From: Roseomonas sp.
GTDB lineage: Bacteria > Pseudomonadota > Alphaproteobacteria > Acetobacterales > Acetobacteraceae
NCBI GenBank assembly: GCA_020249865.1
Contig: JADCEV010000152.1
Location: 1-34,579, forward strand
Reading direction: 5' to 3'
Length of the DNA: 34,579 bases
Shown here: positions 9,514 to 25,652 of the stretch, one piece after another
Position numbering within the stretch: position 1 is the first letter of the stretch
How the letters are laid out: every line of letters starts with the position of its first letter
Translations under genes and position numbers: made by a program
Notes under the pieces: generated by a model
Databases searched by the model: none
Told to the model about the DNA's origin: nothing
What the model saw: the letters and a program-made list of their open reading frames with translations, nothing else

Positions 9514-10362
9514 CTACGCCGATGCCTGATCCAGCGCGCGCCGCAGCAGCAGCAAATCCGCCCAGGCTTCGCGCTTGGAAGCCGGGCTGCGCAGCAAATA
9601 GGCGGGATGAAGCGTCGGCAGCGCGGGAATGCGGCCAAGGCCGGGGATTTCCACCTCATGCCAACGGCCACGGAGCCGGGTGATACCCTCCTTGCCGCCG
9701 ATCAGCCCTTTGGCCGCGACGCCCCCCACCAGCACCAGCCGCTTCGGGCGGATCAGCGCCACCTGACGGCGCAGGAAGGGCAGGAAAAGCGCCACTTCCG
9801 CATCGGTTGGCGTGCGGTTCCCGGGCGGCCGCCAGGGCAGGATATTGGTGATGTAGAAATTACTCTCCCGCGAGAGGCCAACGGAGGCGAACATCCGATC
9901 CAACAATTGGCCCGAAGCGCCAACAAAGGGCCGGCCGGCGCGGTCTTCATCCGCCCCTGGTGCCTCGCCAATCAGCATCAGGCCGGCATCTGTGATGCCT
10001 TCACCAAACACTAGATTCGTCGCGGTTTCCCTGAGCGCCGAGCCATCAAAGGCCGCAATCGCCGCCTTCAGCGCCGCCAGATCGGGGGCAGCGGCGGCCA
10101 GGGCTTCGGCCCGCGTATTGGCCGGCGGCGCGGGCGCCAGGGCAACCGGGGCAGCGCGGATCGGGCGCGGGGCCGGTTCCGGTGCGGGGCGCGCGGCTTC
10201 GGGGGCGCGCGCAGGAGCCTCCCGCAGCGCCAGGCGATCCGCGGGGCTTTCCATCAGCGCCTCATCCGCGCCCCAGTCGCATTGCAGCGCCAGGGCGGCG
10301 GCCAGGGCGGATTTCTCCTGCTCCATCCCCCACATATCGGCCCGGTGCGGGGTTCCGCGCAA
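9514..10362 (-). CDS. Uracil-DNA glycosylase, family 4-like, lacking cluster cysteines
   Basis: A 282-residue base-excision repair enzyme that removes uracil from DNA. The N-terminal about 85 residues are Ala/Pro-rich and probably disordered. The catalytic domain shows motif 1 [17 protein letters not shown] (from residue 132) and motif 2 HPAYLLRSP near the C-terminus, plus [16 protein letters not shown], all typical of family 4 or the alphaproteobacterial branch. Classical family 4 enzymes hold a [4Fe-4S] cluster with four cysteines. Here the only cysteine is Cys28, in the linker, and the position where relatives have GCAL reads GSAL (Ser108). The true start could be one of the internal methionines at residues 10 or 13. 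The gene is divergent from ETF-QO. Confidence 0.93.
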
Positions 10363-13756: not shown

Positions 13757-14824
13757 TTAGCGGAGGATGATTTCCACGCGACGGTTCTGCGGCTCACGCA
13801 CACCATCGGCCGTCGGCACCAGGTTGTTTTCCTCACCAAAGCCGCGCGTGACGATTTCGTTGCGCGGCACACCGCGGCGCACCAGCTCAGCCGCCACCGC
13901 ATTGGCGCGACGCTGAGACAGACCCATGTTGTAATCCGCCGGTCCGGAGCGATCCGTGAAGCCATTCACTTCAATGCGGGTCACCCCGGCACCACGTGAC
14001 GAAGCGGCTTCGCCAATGATCTGGCGGGCGCGATCGGTCAGGTCAGCCTTGCTCCAGTCAAAGAAGACCAGGAAGGTGCGGGCAGCAGAAACTGGCGCAG
14101 CAGCCGCAACAGCCGGGGCCGCGTTGAAGGCGTAGCGGAGGCCAACCAGCAGGGAGTGGTTGAAGTTATCAACCTCAATATCCACCTTCTGCGAGGCAGA
14201 GCCTACCCCCGCGATCTTCGCGGTGTTCGTAACACCTATTTCGGGGCTCGAGGTCGCCATAAAGCGATACTCGGCTGTCAAAGACAAGCCAGGCACCGCG
14301 CTGATTGGCAAAGACAGACCAACAATTGCCTGGCCACCAAATGCGCCTTCAGTGCCACTATAGGTGTCGCTGCTACCGGCTTGTGAAATGCCAACGCTGT
14401 CATAATCATGCCAGATATAACCTGCGCCGACACCAACATATGGCGTCAATCCACCAAGCATTCCCCCGAGGTTGATATCGTAGAGAATGTTTGCCATTGC
14501 ACCGTAACTCGTGACCGTTCCTGTCGCACCCGGCCCTTTCAAACTTCCTCCGAGCTTGACGTCAGTAACATCATTTGACCGGTAGTTACCTTCAAGTTCG
14601 ACGCGAAAGCCATTCCCAAAACCCCAACCGAGGCTCAGAACGCCAACATACCCCCAGGAGAAATCATTCGTGTTATTGCCGCCCTTAAAGGTGACGTCGG
14701 TTTCCATTAAACGGTTCGTACCGAACCCCGCGCCAAGATACAGCCCATTCACGGGCTGGGCCTGCGCCAGCACCGGAAGCGCAACCACCGCCGCAGCGGC
14801 AAGAAGGGTCTTTTTGAAGCTCAT
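13757..14824 (-). CDS. OmpA-family outer-membrane protein, copy 1
   Basis: A 355-residue protein. A signal peptide (MSFKKTLLAAAAVVALPVLA, cleavage after AQA) precedes an outer-membrane beta-barrel (about 23-240, alternating aromatic strands such as LYLGAGFG, YVGVLSLGWGFGNGF and MANILYDINLGG). An Ala-rich linker leads to the OmpA C-terminal domain (about 249-355), which binds peptidoglycan (NGFTDRSG, LSQRRANAV, NRRVEIIL). It would tie the outer membrane to the cell wall. Compared with the other three copies the 107-residue tail differs at three positions (AASS for AASA, GLSQ for QLSI). A ribosome binding site GAGGAAAG precedes the ATG. It has its own hairpin terminator and 306 bp before the next copy, so it is a separate transcription unit. 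The barrel may bind ligands or phage; that is not shown. Confidence 0.93.
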   Translation of the reverse strand: MSFKKTLLAAAAVVALPVLAQAQPVNGLYLGAGFGTNRLMETDVTFKGGNNTNDFSWGYVGVLSLGWGFGNGFRVELEGNYRSNDVTDVKLGGSLKGPGATGTVTSYGAMANILYDINLGGMLGGLTPYVGVGAGYIWHDYDSVGISQAGSSDTYSGTEGAFGGQAIVGLSLPISAVPGLSLTAEYRFMATSSPEIGVTNTAKIAGVGSASQKVDIEVDNFNHSLLVGLRYAFNAAPAVAAAAPVSAARTFLVFFDWSKADLTDRARQIIGEAASSRGAGVTRIEVNGFTDRSGPADYNMGLSQRRANAVAAELVRRGVPRNEIVTRGFGEENNLVPTADGVREPQNRRVEIILR

Positions 14825-16509: not shown

Positions 16510-17601
16510 TTAGCGGAGGATAATTTCCACGCGACGGTTCTGCGGTTCACGCACGCCATCAGCCGTCGGCACCAGGTTGTTTTCCTCACCAAAGCCGCGC
16601 GTGACGATTTCGTTGCGCGGCACACCGCGGCGCACCAGCTCAGCGGCCACCGCATTGGCGCGACGGATGGAAAGCTGCATGTTGTAGTCCGCCGGGCCGG
16701 AACGGTCCGTGAAGCCATTCACTTCAATGCGGGTCACACCAGCGCCACGCGCAGAAGCGGCTTCACCGATGATCTGGCGGGCGCGATCCGTCAGGTCAGC
16801 CTTGCTCCAGTCGAAGAAGACCAGGAAGGTGCGAGCAGCGGCCACTGGCGCGGCAGCGACCGGCATGGCTGGCGCGGCGTTGAAGGCGTAGCGCAGGCCA
16901 ACGAGCAAGGAGTGATTGAAGTTATCAACATCCGAGTTGAGGCGAGTCTGTGACACGCCAGAACCCGAGGTAATGTTACCAGTTCCGTTAATGTCATGCC
17001 CGAGCGTGCCCATGAAACGATATTCGGCAGTGACTGCAAGGCCAGGGACGCCGCTGATGGGCACGGAGAAACCGAGGATAGCCTGATATCCGAAGGCACC
17101 CGTATCGCCATTATACACAGCCCGCTCACCAGTTGAGCGACGCGCGCCAACATCCTGATAGTCGTGCCAAATATAGCCAGCACCGGCGCCAATATAGGGC
17201 GTCAGCCCACCCAGGGCGCCACCAAGATTGAAGTCATAAAGGGCGTTCGCCATCACGCCATAGCTGACAGCCGTGCCTTTACCGCTTGCAATACCCTGTA
17301 CCGACGCGCCACCCACCCTGGTATCGCTCACTTCGTTGGACCGATAGTTGCCTTCTATTTCCGCCCGCAGACCGTTGCCAAAGCCCCAGCCCAAGCTCAA
17401 AACACCAACATAACCAAGCTGAAATTCATTTTCGATCTTGGTGCCGGCTGCATTATTCACTGATCCATTCAGCGTTGTGTCTTGCAGCAAGTTTCCGCCA
17501 ATGCCACCGGCGATGTAAAGCCCGCTCACCGGCTGGGCATGCGCCAATACCGGCATTGCTACCACCGCCGCGGCGGCGAACAGAGTTGTTTTGAACTTCA
17601 T
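16510..17601 (-). CDS. OmpA-family outer-membrane protein, copy 3
   Basis: A 363-residue protein: signal peptide (MKFKTTLFAAAAVVAMPVLA, then HAQP), beta-barrel to about residue 245 with strands LYIAGGIGGNLLQ, YVGVLSLGWGFGNGL and ANALYDFNLGGALGGLTPYIG, an Ala/Pro linker, and the OmpA peptidoglycan-binding domain. Its 107-residue tail is identical in protein to that of copy 4, although the DNA differs at scattered silent sites. The loops (KSTGERAVYNGD-like and NGTGNITSGSGVS-like segments) are specific to this copy. The ribosome binding site is weaker than for the other copies (GGGAAA about 7 bases before the ATG). A hairpin terminator follows. Structural or porin-like role inferred from the family. 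Confidence 0.92.
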   Translation of the reverse strand: MKFKTTLFAAAAVVAMPVLAHAQPVSGLYIAGGIGGNLLQDTTLNGSVNNAAGTKIENEFQLGYVGVLSLGWGFGNGLRAEIEGNYRSNEVSDTRVGGASVQGIASGKGTAVSYGVMANALYDFNLGGALGGLTPYIGAGAGYIWHDYQDVGARRSTGERAVYNGDTGAFGYQAILGFSVPISGVPGLAVTAEYRFMGTLGHDINGTGNITSGSGVSQTRLNSDVDNFNHSLLVGLRYAFNAAPAMPVAAAPVAAARTFLVFFDWSKADLTDRARQIIGEAASARGAGVTRIEVNGFTDRSGPADYNMQLSIRRANAVAAELVRRGVPRNEIVTRGFGEENNLVPTADGVREPQNRRVEIILR

Positions 17602-17762: not shown

Positions 17763-18806
17763 TTACCGCAGGATGATTTCTACGCGACGGTTCTGCGGTT
17801 CACGCACACCATCCGCCGTCGGCACCAGGTTGTTTTCTTCCCCGAAGCCGCGCGTAACGATTTCGTTGCGCGGCACACCGCGGCGCACCAGCTCAGCCGC
17901 CACCGCATTGGCGCGACGGATGGAAAGCTGCATATTGTAGTCCGCCGGGCCAGAACGGTCCGTGAAGCCATTGACTTCAATGCGGGTCACGCCAGCGCCG
18001 CGAGCAGAAGCGGCTTCACCAATGATCTGGCGAGCGCGATCAGTCAGGTCAGCCTTGCTCCAGTCAAAGAAGACCAGGAAGGTGCGGGCAGACGCAACAG
18101 GCGCGGCAGCGGCCACGGCCGGGCCGGCATTGAAGGCATAACGCAGGCCGACCAGCAGCGAATGGTTCGCGTTATCAACATCAAACGTGGTCCGAGAACC
18201 AGCACTATTCGAGGTGATTTCATGACCGGCAGTCATCATGTAACGGTATTCACCGGTCAGCGCCAAGCCAGGCACCGCTGCTATCGGCAGAGAAACACCC
18301 AAAATCGCCTGGCCACCCCAGTTTCCATTATCACCATTCAGCACATTCTTCACGCCACCGACATTGGTGCCCACATCCTCATATTCATGCCAAACGTAGC
18401 CGCCACCAATACCGACATACGGGGTCAATCCGCCAAGAGCGCCATTGAGATTGAAATCATAAAGGAGGTTCAGCATTGCACCGTAGCTTGTCGCGGTGCC
18501 AGTCGCACCAGGCCGAGCCGCATTGCGGTTGGTGATGCCGGATACATCATTTTGACGATAACTGCCTTCGATTTCCGCGCGCAGACCGTTTCCGAACCCC
18601 CAACCGACGCTCAACACTCCGACATAACCCCATGAAAAATCAATGGTGTCGTTGCCAGGTGTACCGCTAACGGTAGCGTCCGTTTCCTGCAACAGGTTAC
18701 CGCCGAAGCCGGCACCCAAATAAAGCCCTGTCACCGGCTGAGCCTGCGCCAGCGCAGAAAGCGCTACTACCGCCGCAGCGGCCAGAAGGGTGTTTTTGAA
18801 GCTCAT
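17763..18806 (-). CDS. OmpA-family outer-membrane protein, copy 4
   Basis: A 347-residue protein: signal peptide (MSFKNTLLAAAAVVALSALA, then QAQP) almost the same as copy 1, beta-barrel (LYLGAGFGGNLLQ, YVGVLSVGWGFGNGL, MLNLLYDFNLNGALGG) and the shared OmpA domain. The barrel combines features of copies 1 and 2: the signal peptide and first strand are like copy 1, the NLNGALGG segment and HEYEDVGTNVG loop are like copy 2. That makes it a possible mosaic. A strong ribosome binding site GAGGAAAAA precedes the ATG. It is the first gene of the array in the direction of transcription and faces a 639-bp region without genes. Confidence 0.93.
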   Translation of the reverse strand: MSFKNTLLAAAAVVALSALAQAQPVTGLYLGAGFGGNLLQETDATVSGTPGNDTIDFSWGYVGVLSVGWGFGNGLRAEIEGSYRQNDVSGITNRNAARPGATGTATSYGAMLNLLYDFNLNGALGGLTPYVGIGGGYVWHEYEDVGTNVGGVKNVLNGDNGNWGGQAILGVSLPIAAVPGLALTGEYRYMMTAGHEITSNSAGSRTTFDVDNANHSLLVGLRYAFNAGPAVAAAAPVASARTFLVFFDWSKADLTDRARQIIGEAASARGAGVTRIEVNGFTDRSGPADYNMQLSIRRANAVAAELVRRGVPRNEIVTRGFGEENNLVPTADGVREPQNRRVEIILR

Positions 18807-19445: not shown

Positions 19446-20060
19446 TTAGGGCGATTTCCGCGAAGGATCTGGGACGGGGACTACCGGAAGCGGGATCACC
19501 CTCTCAATCCGGCACCGCACGTCATCCCCTTGCGCAAACACGGCCGCCCCCGCCGGCGCCACTACAAATAGATGCCCGGCCTTTGTCCCCACCTCATATT
19601 CATGCGTCTGCCCCAAAAACGCGGCACGCTTGATCTGACCGGGCAGGCCCTCACCCTCTTCGGCCAGCGTCACCGCCTCCGGCCTGATCGCGAGTAGCGC
19701 CGGGCCTGACGGATGGGGGCGGAGCCTGGTTTCAAGCGCCACGCCCGCCAGGGAAATCCGCCCAGGGCCAAGCACTTCGCCTTCCAGCACATTCGCCTCC
19801 CCCATGAAATCGGCGATGAAGGCATCGGCGGGCTCATCATACAGTTCCCGCGGCGTGCCCATCTGCGCGATCTTGCCGGCGCGCATGACGCATACAAGGT
19901 CGGAAGCCGCAAGCGCTTCCTGCTGGTCATGCGTGACATAAACCACGGTCAGGCCAAGGCGTTTCTGCAGATCGCGGATATCTTCGCGCACTTGCCGGCG
20001 CAGGCGCGCGCCATGGCGCGGTGTACGATTTCCGCACGTCCCACGCGTTTTCCATCGCAA
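19446..20060 (-). pseudogene. Truncated ABC importer ATPase (C-terminal half only)
   Basis: An open frame whose homologous part starts at about 20009. It contains the post-Walker-B region LRRQVREDIRDLQKRLGL, the H-loop segment VVYVTHDQQEALA, then GTPRELYDEPADAFIADFMG and a TOBE domain to the C-terminus. This is the ferric-iron/polyamine/phosphonate class (FbpC, PotA and AfuC-like). Walker A, the LSGGQ signature and Walker B are all missing, so it cannot bind or hydrolyse ATP. The residues before 20009 (RWKTRGTCGNRTPRHG) have no family likeness. A permease scrap lies directly upstream in another frame, which indicates a deletion joining the two genes. It lies downstream of the inositol phosphatase gene on the same strand. 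Confidence 0.85.
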
Positions 20061-20203
20061 AAAACCGCCGCCAGCATGATCAGGATCAGCACGGTGGAAT
20101 AGACGGTGGCAAGGCTATGGCGCGCTGAGACAAGGAAGATCACGGCGGAAACAGCAGTCACGGCATGGACAAAGCTGAAGGCGAGTACCGCAATCCCGAT
20201 GAC
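20027..20203 (-). pseudogene. ABC importer permease remnant (C-terminal scrap)
   Basis: In one minus-strand frame this stretch reads LAFSFVHAVTAVSAVIFLVS, then ARHSLATVYSTVLILIMLAAVF. It resembles the last two transmembrane helices of FbpB/AfuB/PhnV-type permeases, where SFVRAMTAVSAVIFLVS and AYSTVLIVVMLAAV are typical (from memory of the family). The loop between the helices is shortened by about 20 residues, a stop precedes the fragment at 20204-20206, and no start or upstream helices remain. It directly abuts the ATPase fragment. The 66 bp between it and the phosphatase stop are not recognisable. Confidence 0.7.
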
Positions 20204-20269
20204 TCATATGAATACCCCAAAGCACCGGCATAGATGCCAAGGATACGGAAGCGGGGTTCTTGTTCCCGT

Positions 20270-21052
20270 TCATGGTGACATCAAACGCATCAGGCCGGCC
20301 CCCAAAGCAGGCGCCGCAAAGCAGATGGGATTGCCGTTGGCCAGCCAATCGCCGCTGTCGAAGGCATTCGTCCAGCAGCCGGCTTCGCGCGCGATGGCGA
20401 GTGCGCCGCAGGCATCCCAGGCATTAATGTGCAATTCCATATAGCCATCCAAGCGCCCAATCGCGGTTTCCACCAGGCCGAGCGTACCAGAACCACCGCA
20501 ACGCATACCAGCACCGCTTGCCATGACGCGCCCGGCAAGTGCGATGTATTCCGCAACCGGCCGCCGCAGTGACCAGCCGATTTCAATCGTCGCGCGGCCA
20601 AGGTCACTGGTGTTCGCTGCCCGTATCGCCGCACCATTCAGCGTGGCACCGCAGCCCTGCGCACCCAGTATCACTTCGCCCGGCGCATGGCGGGCAATGG
20701 CGCCCAGCACCGCGCGGCCATCTAGCGCAAGACCGATGGAGACACACCAGCGATCCCCCCCGCGCGCGAAATTGGAGGTGCCATCAATGGGATCAATGAT
20801 CCAAAGCGGGCCGGAATCAGATACCTCGCCACCGCCTTCCTCACCCAGGATCCCCTCACCAGGAAAAAGTCGCGTGAGTTCGCCGCGAATGAAATCCTCG
20901 GTCGCGCCATCAGCTTCGGTCAGGAAATCCTGCGCGCCCTTCAAGCGCGCGGCGCCCTTGCCTTCAAGGCGCAGCCGGGCAGCAAGGGCGGCGGCATCCC
21001 GCGCCATCGGCGCCAAAAGCGAAAGGCGGCGCTGCAATTCGGCGGGCTTCAC
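20270..21052 (-). CDS. Inositol monophosphatase family enzyme
   Basis: A 260-residue magnesium-dependent phosphatase of the IMPase/FBPase fold. The metal-binding motifs are complete: GEEGG (70-74), DPIDGTSNF (87-95) and WDACGALAIAREAG in the C-terminal third. The family hydrolyses inositol-1-phosphate and related sugar or cyclitol phosphates; histidinol phosphate is an alternative in some members. Its start overlaps the stop of the SDR gene by 4 bp (ATGA), so the two are translationally coupled and belong to the iolG operon. This supports an inositol-phosphate substrate. An ABC importer, now broken, followed it on the same strand. Fold and catalytic competence are clear; the substrate is inferred. 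Confidence 0.93.
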   Translation of the reverse strand: MKPAELQRRLSLLAPMARDAAALAARLRLEGKGAARLKGAQDFLTEADGATEDFIRGELTRLFPGEGILGEEGGGEVSDSGPLWIIDPIDGTSNFARGGDRWCVSIGLALDGRAVLGAIARHAPGEVILGAQGCGATLNGAAIRAANTSDLGRATIEIGWSLRRPVAEYIALAGRVMASGAGMRCGGSGTLGLVETAIGRLDGYMELHINAWDACGALAIAREAGCWTNAFDSGDWLANGNPICFAAPALGAGLMRLMSP

Positions 21053-21843
21053 GTATAGGCCCCCATCACATTCTGATCGAAATCCACCAAGGCGCCGGTC
21101 ATCATCTCGGCCGCGTCGGACAGCAGATAAATCGCAAGCCCCGCCACATCAGCGGGCTTGATCAGCCGCCCAAAAGGCTGCGCCGCTTCGGCCTTGGGCA
21201 GCCAATCTGGTGGATTGCCGTCACGCTGTTGGATCACGTGTTCACCCGGCGTATCGGCCCAGCCAAGATTGATGCCATTCACGCGAATGCGCATGTGTCT
21301 CAGGCCAAGCGCTGTGTTTTTCGTGAGTGTGGCAAGCGCGCCCTTGGAAGCCGCATAGGCGGTCAGGAAAGGCTGGCCGCCATGGCTCGACATGGTGATG
21401 ATGTTCACAATGGCGCCGGGGCGCTTGGCTTCAGCCAGGCGTTGCGCCATCGCCTGCGTCAATTGAAAAGGGGCGCGTGCATTCACCGCAAAAAGCCGAT
21501 CCCAAAGCGCTACTGATGTGTCCAGAATACTGCCGCGATCCGTGAGGCCCGCCGCATTGATCAGCCCATCCACCAGGCCAAGCCTTGCTTCGGCTTCAGG
21601 AATAATGCGCGCAACGCTTTCGGCATCTGCCAGATCAGCCGCGCAAAACTGCGCGCGTGTGCCTAGCGCGTGGAGCTTCGCCACCACCGCCTTGCCGCGC
21701 GCCTCATGCCGACCCGTGATGGTAATGGCACCAGCGCCGGCTTCCGCCGCGGCCAGGGCGCAGCCTTCCCCAATGCCCTGCGTGCCACCGGTGATCAGGA
21801 TATGCCGCCCCGCAAGAGAGATTTTCGGCAAAGCGCCCTTCAC
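21049..21843 (-). CDS. Short-chain dehydrogenase in the inositol cluster
   Basis: A 264-residue classical SDR: NAD(P)-binding ITGGTQGIG (about 17-25), NAAG, a catalytic Ser in ITMSSHGG and YAASKGAL with the Tyr/Lys pair, then NGINLGWADTPGE, a modified PG loop. The C-terminus DFDQNVMGAYT departs from the usual IDGG ending, so the substrate pocket may be unusual. It overlaps iolG and the phosphatase gene by 4 bp on either side (ATGA at both junctions), so the three are tightly coupled. A role in oxidising or interconverting an inositol isomer or inosose is plausible from context only. Family certain, substrate unknown. Confidence 0.92.
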   Translation of the reverse strand: MKGALPKISLAGRHILITGGTQGIGEGCALAAAEAGAGAITITGRHEARGKAVVAKLHALGTRAQFCAADLADAESVARIIPEAEARLGLVDGLINAAGLTDRGSILDTSVALWDRLFAVNARAPFQLTQAMAQRLAEAKRPGAIVNIITMSSHGGQPFLTAYAASKGALATLTKNTALGLRHMRIRVNGINLGWADTPGEHVIQQRDGNPPDWLPKAEAAQPFGRLIKPADVAGLAIYLLSDAAEMMTGALVDFDQNVMGAYT

Positions 21844-22826
21844 AGCCTCACGGGTTTGCCGCTGGCAAGTGACGCATTGGCTGCCTCCGCCAAAACCAGG
21901 GCGCGGCGGCCATCTTCCGCACCGACCGGCATGGGCGTTTTGTTCAGCACCGCAGCAATGAAGGCCGCCAATTCGATACGATAGGCATCGGCATAGCGTT
22001 CCAGAAAGAAATGCAGCGGCTTGTCGGAAACAACCGCCTGGCCATCGGCCAATTCCACTGTTGTAGGTGTGCGATTACCGGCGATCAGGCGCCCGGCACT
22101 GCCAAAAACCTCCACGCGCTGGTCATAGCCGTAGCTGGCGCGCCGGCTGTTATTGATATGCGCCATGCGCCCGCTTGGCGTGCGCAGCAGCACCATGGCG
22201 CTATCAATATCGCCGGCAGCACCAATCGCCTGATCCACCAGATTGGCACCATGGGCGAAGACCTCATTGGGTTCTTCGCCCAACATCCAGCGCGCCATAT
22301 CGAAATCATGAATGGTCATGTCGCGAAACAACCCGCCCGAGACCTTCACATAAGAAATCGGCGGCGGCGCCGGGTCGCGGCTGGTGATGATGACCTGTTC
22401 CACCGCGCCAATAGCGCCGACAGCGATGCGGCGATGCAATTCGGCGAAGGAAGGATCAAAGCGCCGATTGAAACCAACCAGCATGGGCACGCCGGCCTTC
22501 GCTACTTCGGCGAGGCAGGCATCCACACGCGGTAGCGCAAGATCAATTGGCTTTTCGCAGAATATCGCCTTGCCTTGGCGCGCCGCGGCCATCACCAGAT
22601 CGGCATGGGTATCGGTGGAAGACGCGATAATCACAGCGCCGACTTCCGGATCGGCCAAAGCGCTTGCCGTATCACTGACGCGCGCGCCATAGCGCCCCGC
22701 CAATGCCGCCGCGGCTTCGGCATTGATATCCACCACATGCTTCAGCCTGGCACGGCCGGATGCGGCAAGATTGCCGGCATGAATGGCGCCGATACGTCCG
22801 GCGCCGAATTGGGCGAAGGTCAGCAT
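21840..22826 (-). CDS. iolG: Inositol 2-dehydrogenase-like Gfo/Idh/MocA oxidoreductase
   Basis: A 328-residue NAD-dependent dehydrogenase that would oxidise myo-inositol to 2-keto-myo-inositol (scyllo-inosose). The N-terminal Rossmann fold starts FGAGRIGAIHAGN (about 7-19). The EKP motif (CEKPIDL, Glu91-Lys92-Pro93), GFNRRFDPSF and the catalytic RDMTIHDFD (D-x3-H) are all present. An open frame continues upstream to 23126 but runs through the divergent promoter and iolD on the other strand; the ATG at 22826 gives the proper fold start. It is first in the minus-strand operon and divergent from iolD across 97 bp. iolG is the best name from motifs plus neighbours; a related cyclitol dehydrogenase is possible. 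Confidence 0.9.
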   Translation of the reverse strand: MLTFAQFGAGRIGAIHAGNLAASGRARLKHVVDINAEAAAALAGRYGARVSDTASALADPEVGAVIIASSTDTHADLVMAAARQGKAIFCEKPIDLALPRVDACLAEVAKAGVPMLVGFNRRFDPSFAELHRRIAVGAIGAVEQVIITSRDPAPPPISYVKVSGGLFRDMTIHDFDMARWMLGEEPNEVFAHGANLVDQAIGAAGDIDSAMVLLRTPSGRMAHINNSRRASYGYDQRVEVFGSAGRLIAGNRTPTTVELADGQAVVSDKPLHFFLERYADAYRIELAAFIAAVLNKTPMPVGAEDGRRALVLAEAANASLASGKPVRL

Positions 22827-22851
22827 GCTTGGCCTGGCGTTTCCTGGATGG

Positions 22852-22890
22852 TTCTTGCGCGGTGGTTTCAATGACCGTAACACGCAAGAA
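22852..22890. promoter_or_regulatory. Inverted repeat in the iolG/iolD divergent promoter region, candidate operator
   Basis: TTCTTGCG (22852-22859) and CGCAAGAA (22883-22890) are perfect 8-bp inverted arms. Inside them CGGT (22860-22863) and ACCG (22874-22877) form a second, slightly offset inverted pair. The structure sits near the middle of the 97-bp gap between the two divergent start codons (22826 and 22924). It could bind a dimeric regulator controlling both operons. No regulator gene is adjacent, and it matches no consensus I can name. Confidence 0.5.
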
Positions 22891-22923
22891 AGGCGGGACA
22901 ATACCCCCAGCCGAGGAGATTCC

Positions 22924-24762
22924 ATGGCGAGCCTCACTCTGACCGCGGCTGAGGCTGTGGTCCGCTTCCTGGCAGCGCAGGAAACCGAGATTGATGGCCG
23001 GGCGCTCCCGCTTTTCGGCGGTGTCTGGGCGATTTTTGGCCATGGCAATGTCGCCGGGCTGGGGCCGGCTTTGGAAGCGCATCGCGGCAAGCTGCCGGTT
23101 TTTCGTGCGCATAATGAACAGGCCATGGCGCTGGCCGCGATTGCCTATGCCAAAACCCATGCGCGGCGACGCATGATGGCCTGCACGAGTTCCATCGGGC
23201 CGGGGGCGACCAATATGGTGACGGCTGCGGCCGTGGCGCATGCGAATCGCCTGCCGCTTTTGCTATTGCCCGGCGATGTCTTTGCCAGCCGGCGCCCCGA
23301 TCCGGTCTTGCAGCAGATCGAACATTTCAGCGATGCGACGCTTTCCGCCAATGATTGCTTCCGCCCCGTGTCGCGCCTTTTCGATCGCATCACGCGCGCC
23401 GAACAATTGCTGACCGCTTTGCCCGCCGCCATGCGGGTGCTGACCGATCCCGCCGAATGCGGCCCCGTCACGCTGGCCTTCCCGCAGGATGTGCAAACCG
23501 AAGCCATGGCGTGGCCTGCCGAGTTTTTCCGCAAGCGCCTGTGGCGCCCGCGTGCTGCGGAGCCGGATGCGCGAGAACTCGCCGCTGCCACCGCGCTGCT
23601 CGCGCAGGCGAAACGCCCGATCATCATCATCGGTGGTGGTGTGAAATATGCGCGGGCGGAAGCCACACTTGCAGATTTTGCTGGGCGGCATGGCATTCCC
23701 CATGCCGAAACCCAGGCGGGCAAGGGCAGCTTACCCTGGGACGCGCCGGGCAATCTGGGCGCCATTGGCGTGACCGGCACGGCGGCGGCCAATGCGCTGG
23801 CCGCGAAAGCGGATGTTGTCCTGGCGATCGGCACCAGGTTGCAGGATTTCTCGACCGGCTCTCGTGCCTTGTTTCCGAAGGCGCGCGTGATCGGCCTGAA
23901 TGTTGTGGGCTTTGATGCGCATAAGCATGGTGCGCTGCCGCTTGTGGCCGATGCGGCGCGAGGGCTTGTTGCACTCTCAACCGCGCTCGGTGCCTGGGCA
24001 GCGCCGCAAGCCTGGCAAGGCAAGGCACGCAGCGCCATCCAGCAATGGCAGCGCGTGGTGGATCGCGTCACCGCCGCGCCCAAGGGCAAAAGCGCTGGCC
24101 CGCCCACTGATGCGCAGGTTTTGGGCGCGGTCAATCGCGCCATGCCGCGCCATGGCATGGTTGTCTGCGCGGCCGGCGGCCTGCCCGGCGAATTGCACAA
24201 GCTTTGGCGCGCGCAAGATGGCACCGGCTACCATCTGGAATATGGCTATTCCTGCATGGGCTATGAAATTGCGGGCGGGCTTGGTGCAAAACTTGCCGCG
24301 CCAGACCGCGAAGTGGTGGTGATGGTCGGTGATGGCAGCTATCTGATGATGAATAGCGAAATCGCGACTTCCATTGCGCTTGGCGCCAAGCTTACGATCA
24401 TCGTTCTGGATAATCGCGGCTTTGGCTGCATTCATCGCCTGCAACGCGGCACAGGCGGCGTGGCCTTCAATAACCTGCTGGCCGATGCCGCACCGCGCAT
24501 TGATTTCGCCGCCCATGCTGCGGCGCTCGGCGCCGAAGCACGCAAGGTCAGCGATATCGCCGCGCTGGAAGCCGCCCTGCCCGGCGCCTTGGCCGCCAAG
24601 CGCACGCAGGTGATCGTGATTGAAACAGACCCGGAAAGCGGCACAGCCGAAGGCGGCGCCTGGTGGGAAGTGCCGGTCAGTGCCGCGCCGCATTCCCCCG
24701 CGCAAGAAGCCGCCCGCAGCGATTATGACGTGAAGCGCCGCAACCAGGCGGAAGGGGGCTGA
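22924..24762 (+). CDS. iolD: 3D-(3,5/4)-trihydroxycyclohexane-1,2-dione hydrolase
   Basis: A 612-residue thiamine diphosphate enzyme that opens the six-carbon ring to 5-deoxy-glucuronate in inositol catabolism. The three-domain layout of the acetolactate synthase family is visible. The N-terminal PYR domain carries the catalytic glutamate in RAHNEQAMALAA (Glu65), followed by STIGPGATN-like SSIGPGATNMVTAA. A central domain contains PIIIIGGGVKYA. The C-terminal PP domain has the ThDP/Mg motif GDGSYLMMNSEI (469-480). FGHGNVAGLGPAL near the start and GFGCIHRLQ are specific to IolD. The ribosome binding site GAGGAG (22913-22918) is 5 bases before the ATG; the frame is open further upstream but not family-like. 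iolE follows after 2 bp. Confidence 0.95.
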   Translation: MASLTLTAAEAVVRFLAAQETEIDGRALPLFGGVWAIFGHGNVAGLGPALEAHRGKLPVFRAHNEQAMALAAIAYAKTHARRRMMACTSSIGPGATNMVTAAAVAHANRLPLLLLPGDVFASRRPDPVLQQIEHFSDATLSANDCFRPVSRLFDRITRAEQLLTALPAAMRVLTDPAECGPVTLAFPQDVQTEAMAWPAEFFRKRLWRPRAAEPDARELAAATALLAQAKRPIIIIGGGVKYARAEATLADFAGRHGIPHAETQAGKGSLPWDAPGNLGAIGVTGTAAANALAAKADVVLAIGTRLQDFSTGSRALFPKARVIGLNVVGFDAHKHGALPLVADAARGLVALSTALGAWAAPQAWQGKARSAIQQWQRVVDRVTAAPKGKSAGPPTDAQVLGAVNRAMPRHGMVVCAAGGLPGELHKLWRAQDGTGYHLEYGYSCMGYEIAGGLGAKLAAPDREVVVMVGDGSYLMMNSEIATSIALGAKLTIIVLDNRGFGCIHRLQRGTGGVAFNNLLADAAPRIDFAAHAAALGAEARKVSDIAALEAALPGALAAKRTQVIVIETDPESGTAEGGAWWEVPVSAAPHSPAQEAARSDYDVKRRNQAEGG

Positions 24763-24764
24763 TC

Positions 24765-25652
24765 ATGCGTATTCGTCTTGGCATCAATCCGCTCACCTGG
24801 ACCAATGACGACATGCCGGAATTGGGCGCAGCCACGCCGCTCGAGACCTGCCTCACTGAGGGCAAGCAGGCCGGCTTTGCGGGGTTTGAGCTTGGCAATA
24901 AGTTTCCGCGCGATGCTGCTGTGCTGCGCCCCATCCTGGCGCAGCATGGGCTTGATCTGGTGTCCGGCTGGTATGGTTCGCGCCTGTTGGAACGCGATGT
25001 GGATGCCGAAATGGCAGCGGCGGAAGCGCATATCAGCCTTTTGGTGGCGATGAGTTGCAAGGTGATGGTGCATGCGGAAGTCGCCCGCGCCATTCATGGC
25101 GAAAGGGGTGTCGCGCTGTCACGGCGCCCCGTGATGACCGATGCGGATTGGGCGATTTTCGCCCCCCGCATTACGGAATTTGCAAGGCGCCTCAAGGCGC
25201 GCGGGTTATGGCTTGCCTATCACCACCATATGGGCACGGTGATTGAATCCCAGGCGGAAATTGATCGGTTGATGGCACTCACCGGGCCGGAGGTCGGGCT
25301 TTTGCTCGATACCGGACACCTCACTTTTGCTGGCGGCGATCCCGCGCTGGCGGCGCGCCAGCATGCGGCGCGCATTGTGCATGTGCATTGCAAGGATATC
25401 CGCAGGGCGGTGCTGCAAGACGTGAGCGCGCGTGATCTGCCCTTTCTGGCGGCGGTGCTTGAGGGTGTCTTCACCGTGCCCGGCGATGGCTGCGTGGATT
25501 ACCCGGCGGTGCTGAAACCCTTGGCGTCCGGTGGCTACAAAGGCTGGTTGGTGGTGGAGGCCGAACAGGACCCCGCCAAGGCGCATCCCCTCACCTATGC
25601 GCGCATGGGCCATGACAATCTGGCGCAGCTTGCGCGTGATGCTTTTGGGTGA
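24765..25652 (+). CDS. iolE: Inosose (myo-inosose-2) dehydratase
   Basis: A 295-residue TIM-barrel enzyme of the xylose isomerase-like/AP-endonuclease-2 family that dehydrates scyllo-inosose to the dione used by IolD. The N-terminus RLGINPLTWTNDDMPELG is characteristic of IolE. Metal-site segments include GLWLAYHHHMGTVIES, LLLDTGHLTFAGGDP and IVHVHCKDIR, and the C-terminal GWLVVEAEQDPAKAHP is also typical. It starts 2 bp after the iolD stop, so the pair is coupled. The rlmJ gene begins only 3 bp after its stop, so unrelated housekeeping genes may be read from the same promoter. Confidence 0.95.
   Translation: MRIRLGINPLTWTNDDMPELGAATPLETCLTEGKQAGFAGFELGNKFPRDAAVLRPILAQHGLDLVSGWYGSRLLERDVDAEMAAAEAHISLLVAMSCKVMVHAEVARAIHGERGVALSRRPVMTDADWAIFAPRITEFARRLKARGLWLAYHHHMGTVIESQAEIDRLMALTGPEVGLLLDTGHLTFAGGDPALAARQHAARIVHVHCKDIRRAVLQDVSARDLPFLAAVLEGVFTVPGDGCVDYPAVLKPLASGGYKGWLVVEAEQDPAKAHPLTYARMGHDNLAQLARDAFG

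Follow-up and report, generated by a model that had tools for sequence, protein, structure and literature searches.

Here, we analysed a stretch of 34,579 nucleotides from Roseomonas sp. (assembly GCA_020249865.1, contig JADCEV010000152.1), hereafter called the window, in which genes for three enzymes of inositol breakdown (iolG, iolD and iolE), a short-chain dehydrogenase/reductase (SDR) and a phosphatase of the inositol monophosphatase family (IMPase) lie next to scraps of an ATP-binding cassette (ABC) importer. We consider it fairly probable that the ancestral form of this cluster served to take up and break down a phosphorylated cyclitol, in all likelihood inositol monophosphate, combining import by AfuABC, the IMPase and IolG, IolE and IolD. 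The families of the genes, their linkage, the conserved ligand contacts of AfuA and the disappearance of the importer from the source strain are read from the sequences themselves. For the substrate of the importer, the phosphatase step and the role of the SDR, we infer the following pathway. The importer, made of the periplasmic AfuA, the double-length permease AfuB and the ATPase AfuC, would bring in a phosphorylated cyclitol anion, from which the cytoplasmic IMPase, judging from its family and its linkage, would strip the phosphate. IolG would then oxidise the ring, possibly aided by the SDR acting as another cyclitol dehydrogenase, a guess based on its frequent pairing with iolG, and, from the functions known for their families, IolE would dehydrate the product and IolD would open the ring.

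Enzyme genes and importer remnants in the window

The window is contig C60 of a 3.65 Mb genome in 154 contigs (completeness 100, contamination 0.19). As the original prediction had it, two divergent groups of genes are found: on the forward strand iolD (22921..24762, trihydroxycyclohexanedione hydrolase) and iolE (24765..25652, inosose dehydratase), and on the reverse strand iolG (21840..22817, inositol 2-dehydrogenase), the SDR gene (21049..21843) and the IMPase gene (20270..21052), the 4-bp overlaps between iolG and SDR (21840-21843) and between SDR and IMPase (21049-21052) being borne out by the coordinates. The products of the three iol genes are standard family members, all above the NCBIfam equivalog cut-offs (IolG, TIGR04380, 439.9 bits, cut-off 355; IolD, TIGR04377, 895.9 bits, cut-off 715; IolE, TIGR04379, 407.7 bits, cut-off 290), and the closest solved chain to IolG is 4hkt, an inositol 2-dehydrogenase (E 8e-96). 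The SDR oxidoreductase belongs to subfamily PRK06198 (NF004847, 342 bits, cut-off 240) and has a solved relative in 4nim (E 5e-73); its nearest named relatives come from metagenome-assembled genomes (MAGs) labelled Roseomonas sp. (93-97% identity) and from one labelled Alphaproteobacteria (locus L046, 92%), followed by Falsiroseomonas and other Roseomonas. The IMPase shares PF00459 (163.6 bits, cut-off 27) with inositol-1-monophosphatase, HisN and CysQ, and its finer class is not assignable by NCBIfam cut-offs, as it fits no equivalog (HisN, 111 bits, cut-off 275.15; inositol-1-monophosphatase PRK10757, 108 bits, cut-off 332). Solved inositol-1-monophosphatases match it at 4e-31 and weaker, and its translation contains DPIDGT, a metal-binding motif of the family. 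The source genome has four other PF00459 genes, one of them a CysQ above cut-off and another 2 bits below that of HisN.

After the IMPase gene and on the same strand, the original prediction had noted remnants of a permease and an ATPase, both confirmed by hidden Markov model (HMM) and blastn alignment to relatives, and a third remnant can now be added, a 42-nt scrap of an AfuA-type binding-protein gene (20210..20251) that matches locus L005 of a relative (9950-9991, 88% identity, E 7e-10); the same stretch, window 20251-20210, is also matched in L002 and L003. The permease remnant (20006..20186) is the C-terminal end of an AfuB-type gene (HMM positions 640-715 of 716), in two pieces (20186-20099 and 20102-20006) aligned by blastn with L005 12569-12656 and 12701-12798. 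It is followed by an open reading frame (19446..20060, reverse strand) that holds the C-terminal half of an AfuC-type ATPase with its TOBE domain (TOBE_2, 42 bits; HMM positions 164-335 of 335), window 20009-19489 aligning with L005 13333-13853 and the N-terminal half being missing. The remnants are collinear by blastn with the importer genes of L005, L046 and L001, in the order binding protein, permease, ATPase. Their predicted assignment to the AfuABC (FbpABC-like) class rests on the intact genes of these relatives (match to AfuA structures, E 6e-88), and the predicted loss of the importer from the source strain stands, the window holding scraps only.

With L005 as reference, the window, L002 and L003 share both end points of the binding-protein scrap, and these three and L004 share the first base of the permease remnant. 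Given these common end points, the importer loss is most simply read from the alignments as shared by the window strain and three other MAG species (L002, L003, L004); the damage to the ATPase gene in L002 and L004 differs. We also noted that AfuA lies in two reading frames within the otherwise intact cluster of L001 (9591-10600), as an independent lesion or an assembly error.

The enzyme genes of the source strain appear to be still under purifying selection, with dN/dS values (ratios of nonsynonymous to synonymous change) of 0.06-0.16 for the five genes when the window is compared with L002 or L003, both with the same dead importer, although recombination could blur these values. Enzyme genes of the importer-bearing pair L005-L046 give values in the same range. 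It is accordingly highly improbable that the cluster of the source strain is a decaying, functionless relic, as the dead importer in the window, L002, L003 and L004, the split AfuA of L001 and the failure to find IolB and IolC (see below) might suggest, since all five enzyme genes are open and constrained to the same degree as in the importer-bearing pair. A caveat to the dN/dS reading comes from the remnants. The ATPase remnant (19446-20060) stays an open frame and changes mainly at third positions, which is odd for a dead gene: the window and L003 differ there at 6, 5 and 20 sites of codon positions 1, 2 and 3 (187 each). The dead stretch upstream of it shows 18 differences in 260 positions between the same two sequences, below the dS of 0.24-0.30 of the flanking genes. 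These patterns could reflect residual constraint or recombination spreading a decayed allele.

Since the importer is dead and the enzymes remain under purifying selection, the latter probably receive their substrate through another transporter. A candidate feeder is an intact second AfuABC system on contig C33 (14700-21100; L073 8723-15101), in which three AfuA-like proteins in tandem are combined with a permease and an ATPase; behind it come the genes of a PhnD-type phosphonate/phosphate ABC transporter, binding protein included. The three AfuA-like proteins differ at the ligand-contact residues (H-D, M-E and H-N); one of them has all five contact residues, the other two do not, and all three fall outside the AfuA branch described below. 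Similar AfuA triplets occur in genomes G026 and G010. Endogenous inositol phosphate produced by Ino1 was discarded as a source, as the source genome has no PF07994 match.

Elsewhere in the window, three OmpA-domain proteins are clustered at 13757-14824, 16510-17601 and 17763-18806 (reverse strand), and the translations of the last two have an identical C-terminal OmpA half.

The intact importer in relatives

We collected 54 loci carrying relatives of the SDR from named genomes by a non-exhaustive pattern scan, and typed their genes with HMMs built from the same loci. AfuA was found in 37 loci, the IMPase in 37, the two together in 34, and AfuA with iolD in 32. Intact binding protein, permease and ATPase genes beside the IMPase-SDR-iolG set, which the original prediction had proposed to look for, are indeed present, AfuA, IMPase and iolG occurring together in 30 of the 54 loci. 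In the usual order, iolE-iolD is divergent from iolG-SDR-IMPase-AfuA-AfuB-AfuC; the IMPase gene is on the opposite strand in L033, L035, L040 and L053, and L002, L003 and L004 have an importer remnant of the window type. Among the other loci, L006 ends directly after the SDR gene, and L038, with iolG, IolB and IolC, ends shortly after it; in L051, iolG and IolB are accompanied by an AfuC-like gene, and AfuA is lacking. At the Devosia loci L045 and L047-L049, iolG, D, E, B and C occur without AfuA or IMPase, and L043 has iolG and IolC and neither AfuA nor IMPase. Only iolG was counted in L050, and none of the counted genes was recognised in L041, L042, L044 and L052 at the HMM scores used.

The binding protein of L046 aligns over its mature chain with the solved AfuA structures 4r72-4r75 (E 5.8e-88) and with 8x1a (1e-91). 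AfuA binds glucose 6-phosphate (G6P), fructose 6-phosphate, sedoheptulose 7-phosphate and mannose 6-phosphate; its essential sugar contacts are H205, D206 and E229, and the phosphate is contacted by S37 and T150 (PMC4546632). These residues were mapped through the L046-structure alignment, the chain index being the number of the paper plus 2, as deduced from matching letters, onto 69 AfuA rows, some of which represent the same gene twice and 10 of which are C33-type paralogues. Outside these paralogues, in proteins of relatives, the equivalents of T150, H205, D206 and E229 are kept in 59 of 59 rows, and that of S37 in 54 of 59 (A in the other five). In a tree of 65 AfuA rows, all 42 AfuAs linked to iol, IMPase or SDR genes are on one branch (100/100), which also includes six AfuAs without such a neighbour in the DNA analysed; the 17 AfuAs outside it are all unlinked. 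At the AfuABC loci without iol genes, inspection by eye revealed no common partner gene. Assignment to the 2-aminoethylphosphonate transporter PhnS2-PhnU2-PhnT2 was rejected, the L046 proteins scoring 200.8, 253 and 360.5 bits, below the respective NCBIfam cut-offs of 392.75, 593.25 and 457.7.

Linkage with iol genes recurs in fuller clusters. L029 and L031 have the arrangement AfuA (truncated where the analysed sequence ends)-IMPase-IolC-IolB-IolE-IolD, divergent from IolG-SDR, the IolB of L029 being a PF04962 member that scores under the TIGR04378 cut-off. In Neorhizobium sp. SOG26, IolB-E-D-C is divergent from IolG-AfuA-B-C-IMPase, and in genome G160 AfuCBA adjoins IolG-IolC-IolD-IolE-IolB, with no IMPase.

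AfuABC-IMPase also forms a four-gene unit on plasmids of Rhizobiaceae and Pantoea. Among 72,556 plasmid records, 162 have an AfuA match (E <= 1e-50) and 164 a match to the Neorhizobium IMPase; among the matches listed for both, pairing by hand gave 17 records (16 from Sinorhizobium), and in all of them AfuA and IMPase are on the same strand at a distance of 3.4-3.6 kb. Eight further plasmid IMPase matches have AfuABC in front in seven cases, L151 being the one without it. In S. meliloti 1021 the AfuABC-IMPase order is found on pSymB (L141), where it most likely corresponds to SMb20362-SMb20365. A 2025 study calls SMb20362 an inositol-phosphate phosphatase, SMb20363 FbpC1 and SMb20365 a putative iron-binding protein (PMC12542648), and a gap-filling table discordantly gives SM_b20362 as 2-dehydropantoate 2-reductase (PMC3272708). 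Annotated Ugp (glycerol-3-phosphate importer) genes come after AfuABC-IMPase in Neorhizobium galegae VafX2, and on a plasmid of Rhizobium sp. CC-CFT758 (L149 9570-20801) AfuABC-IMPase is flanked by iolG on one side and by Ugp genes with a Na/Pi cotransporter on the other, a gene arrangement that may reflect joint use of phosphatidylinositol breakdown products. Plasmid pShin-02 of Shinella sp. HZN7 (L153 8424-22284) carries two ABC importers annotated as iron-type, each with an inositol monophosphatase family gene; a dual-specificity-type phosphatase and a metallophosphoesterase come after them, and the region resembles an organic-phosphate island.

Co-occurrence with IolD and the nature of the substrate

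In a survey of 150 Acetobacteraceae genomes (E cut-offs: IolD 1e-100, IolB 1e-20, IolC 1e-85, AfuA 1e-75), IolD was found in 55 genomes, IolB in 22, IolC in 23, AfuA in 26, and IolB together with IolD in 20. IolD is present in 19 of the 26 AfuA genomes versus 36 of the 124 without AfuA (Fisher 7e-5; this and the following tests ignore ancestry), the source genome counting as AfuA-bearing solely through its C33 copies. Seven of the 26, the source genome included, have AfuA only outside the linked branch, and when only AfuAs of that branch are considered, a split chosen after seeing the tree and with G108 placed by 85% identity, the figures become 18 of 19 versus 37 of 131 (Fisher 3e-8). In the 19 genomes with both AfuA and IolD, the former lies near the latter on one contig in 13 and on a different contig in 5, the remaining one being the source genome.

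Several observations weigh against the proposed module. The first concerns the lower part of inositol breakdown: of the 55 IolD-bearing Acetobacteraceae genomes, 35 are without IolB, and all 35 are also without IolC, the proportion lacking IolB being 28 of 46 among IolD genomes with completeness of 90% or more and contamination of 5% or less. The IolB cut-off could miss very divergent proteins, those of L029, L038 and L039 scoring 84.8-116.8 bits. Within the genus, IolB was found in none of 35 genomes even at E <= 0.001 (completeness 77-100; 9 of the 35 are <90% complete and/or >5% contaminated), and the source genome has no PF04962 match that would indicate a remote IolB and a best IolC match of 141.5 bits, with a cut-off of 300. 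With IolB not found in the genus and no IolC reaching the cut-off in the source genome, the described inositol breakdown stops after IolD. Linkage is also incomplete. A close copy of the linked AfuA (81-100% identity) exists in only 15 of the 35 genus members, and one of these copies is split in two; L008 keeps the SDR and iol genes, the 3.6 kb beyond its SDR containing no IMPase or AfuABC; and AfuA-iol loci without an IMPase in the DNA analysed were found in L034, L036, L039, L090, L092, L094, L099, L104, L116 and L120. On plasmids, 10 of the 12 typed loci, S. meliloti, S. medicae and Pantoea dispersa included, have no iol gene within 7-14 kb flanks, only L146 and L149 having one, and a Pseudoroseomonas plasmid has AfuABC with no IMPase or iol gene nearby. 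With the same HMM, the rhizobial and Pantoea IMPases score 219-247 bits (282 for the second Shinella copy) versus about 395-436 for the Roseomonas type, which suggests a more distant kind of enzyme, so that the association of the phosphatase with AfuABC may have arisen repeatedly. Finally, the word inositol is absent from the text of the AfuA paper (PMC4546632), and a hexose phosphate would fit the same contact residues.

This last point bears on an alternative, in which AfuABC imports ordinary hexose or heptose phosphates, the IMPase removes the phosphate or serves phosphate supply, and the adjoining iol genes have a different purpose. The five G6P-binding residues, largely kept, and the plasmid units standing apart from iol genes agree with it. 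We nonetheless regard it as unlikely, in view of the repeated iol linkage in separate orders, the placement of the linked AfuAs on a branch apart from the 17 unlinked ones, and the co-occurrence of AfuA and IolD; in addition, hexose phosphates enter glycolysis without dephosphorylation. The phosphorylated-cyclitol import put forward in the original prediction is upheld in part: an intact importer of the sugar-phosphate class adjoins IMPase-SDR-iolG in many relatives and, in other lineages, the importer and an IMPase accompany fuller iol clusters, but the failure to find IolB and IolC, L008 and the iol-less plasmid loci speak against a simple version of it.

AfuA is more frequent where IolB is missing, as it occurs in 18 of the 35 IolD genomes without IolB versus 1 of the 20 with it (Fisher 4e-4; 17 of 35 versus 1 of 20 for linked-branch AfuA, Fisher 9e-4). 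This enrichment would suit an importer whose cargo is a less common cyclitol derivative, an ester or phosphodiester such as a fragment of glycerophosphoinositol or a phosphorylated cyclitol other than the myo form, with the SDR and IolG interconverting the ring, which might explain the missing IolB and IolC; the Ugp genes following AfuABC-IMPase in two Rhizobiaceae and the linkage of SDR and iolG even at Devosia loci showing no AfuA point the same way. Such a substrate is distinctly improbable, considering that IolG, IolE and IolD score as standard members and that AfuABC is also found in clusters with IolB and IolC.

Other ways to complete the pathway after IolD were considered. Among the recurrent neighbours of IolD at 50 loci, a xylose-isomerase-like TIM barrel is shared by 7 and a tartrate-dehydrogenase-like gene by 3, with no convincing lower pathway. 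In a Rhodospirillales MAG, a glucuronate isomerase (UxaC) gene is located beside the SDR and AfuABC (L035 6517-7929), a possible hint of uronate handling; UxaC as a stand-in for IolB, suggested by this locus, was dropped, having no match in the source genome. Retention of the phosphate through the pathway, which would make IolC dispensable, was rejected on chemical reasoning, since the carbon phosphorylated by IolC derives from the aldehyde carbon of 5-deoxyglucuronate, where no phosphate is possible before isomerisation, and the IMPase would have no role.

Returning to inositol monophosphate as the substrate, a broader proposal can be made, more tentatively than that for the ancestral cluster. 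This AfuABC branch, often annotated as iron transport, may be dedicated to inositol-monophosphate import and act together with an IMPase of the cytoplasm in Rhodospirillales, Rhizobiaceae and Pantoea; in Roseomonas-type Acetobacteraceae, it would feed an IolG-IolE-IolD cyclitol pathway without IolB and IolC.

Known systems and implications

The importer of the relatives resembles AfuABC of Actinobacillus and Citrobacter, as described in PMC4546632, in having an AfuA alignable over its mature length, largely matched contact residues and three genes in a row; it differs in adjoining iol genes and an IMPase, and the window keeps scraps of it only. The linked AfuAs form a branch of their own among those sampled, the Actinobacillus AfuA not being in the tree. 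A further homologue, the pyridoxal-5-phosphate binding protein P5PA (6wce, E 2e-78), is different at the positions corresponding to D206 and E229, whereas the iol-linked AfuAs keep both. With the myo-inositol catabolic clusters surveyed in 2022 (PMC9430895) the window shares standard IolG, IolD and IolE, but IolB and IolC were not found here. That survey required at least three of iolB, C, D and E, so that clusters with only iolD and iolE, like the one in the window, fall outside it. The Caulobacter inositol module likewise combines alphaproteobacterial iol enzymes with an ABC importer, but its IbpA system takes up free myo-inositol; its authors only speculate that inositol phosphates and other derivatised inositols may be moved by another, HlyB-family transporter (PMC2597717). 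No characterised bacterial inositol-phosphate importer was found in the open-licence literature, searched by titles and abstract beginnings, and in PMC5082522 the term appears only among the references. An AfuABC-class importer and iol enzymes are each known; we did not find their combination and probable substrate described in this open-licence literature.

In animal waste, 2-60% of the organic phosphorus is reportedly in the form of inositol phosphates, and phytate is described as abundant both on land and in water (PMC9430895). If AfuABC-IMPase imports inositol phosphates, the annotations as iron ABC permeases in Rhizobiaceae and Pantoea would be misnomers, and bacteria would not need to remove all the phosphate outside the cell first.

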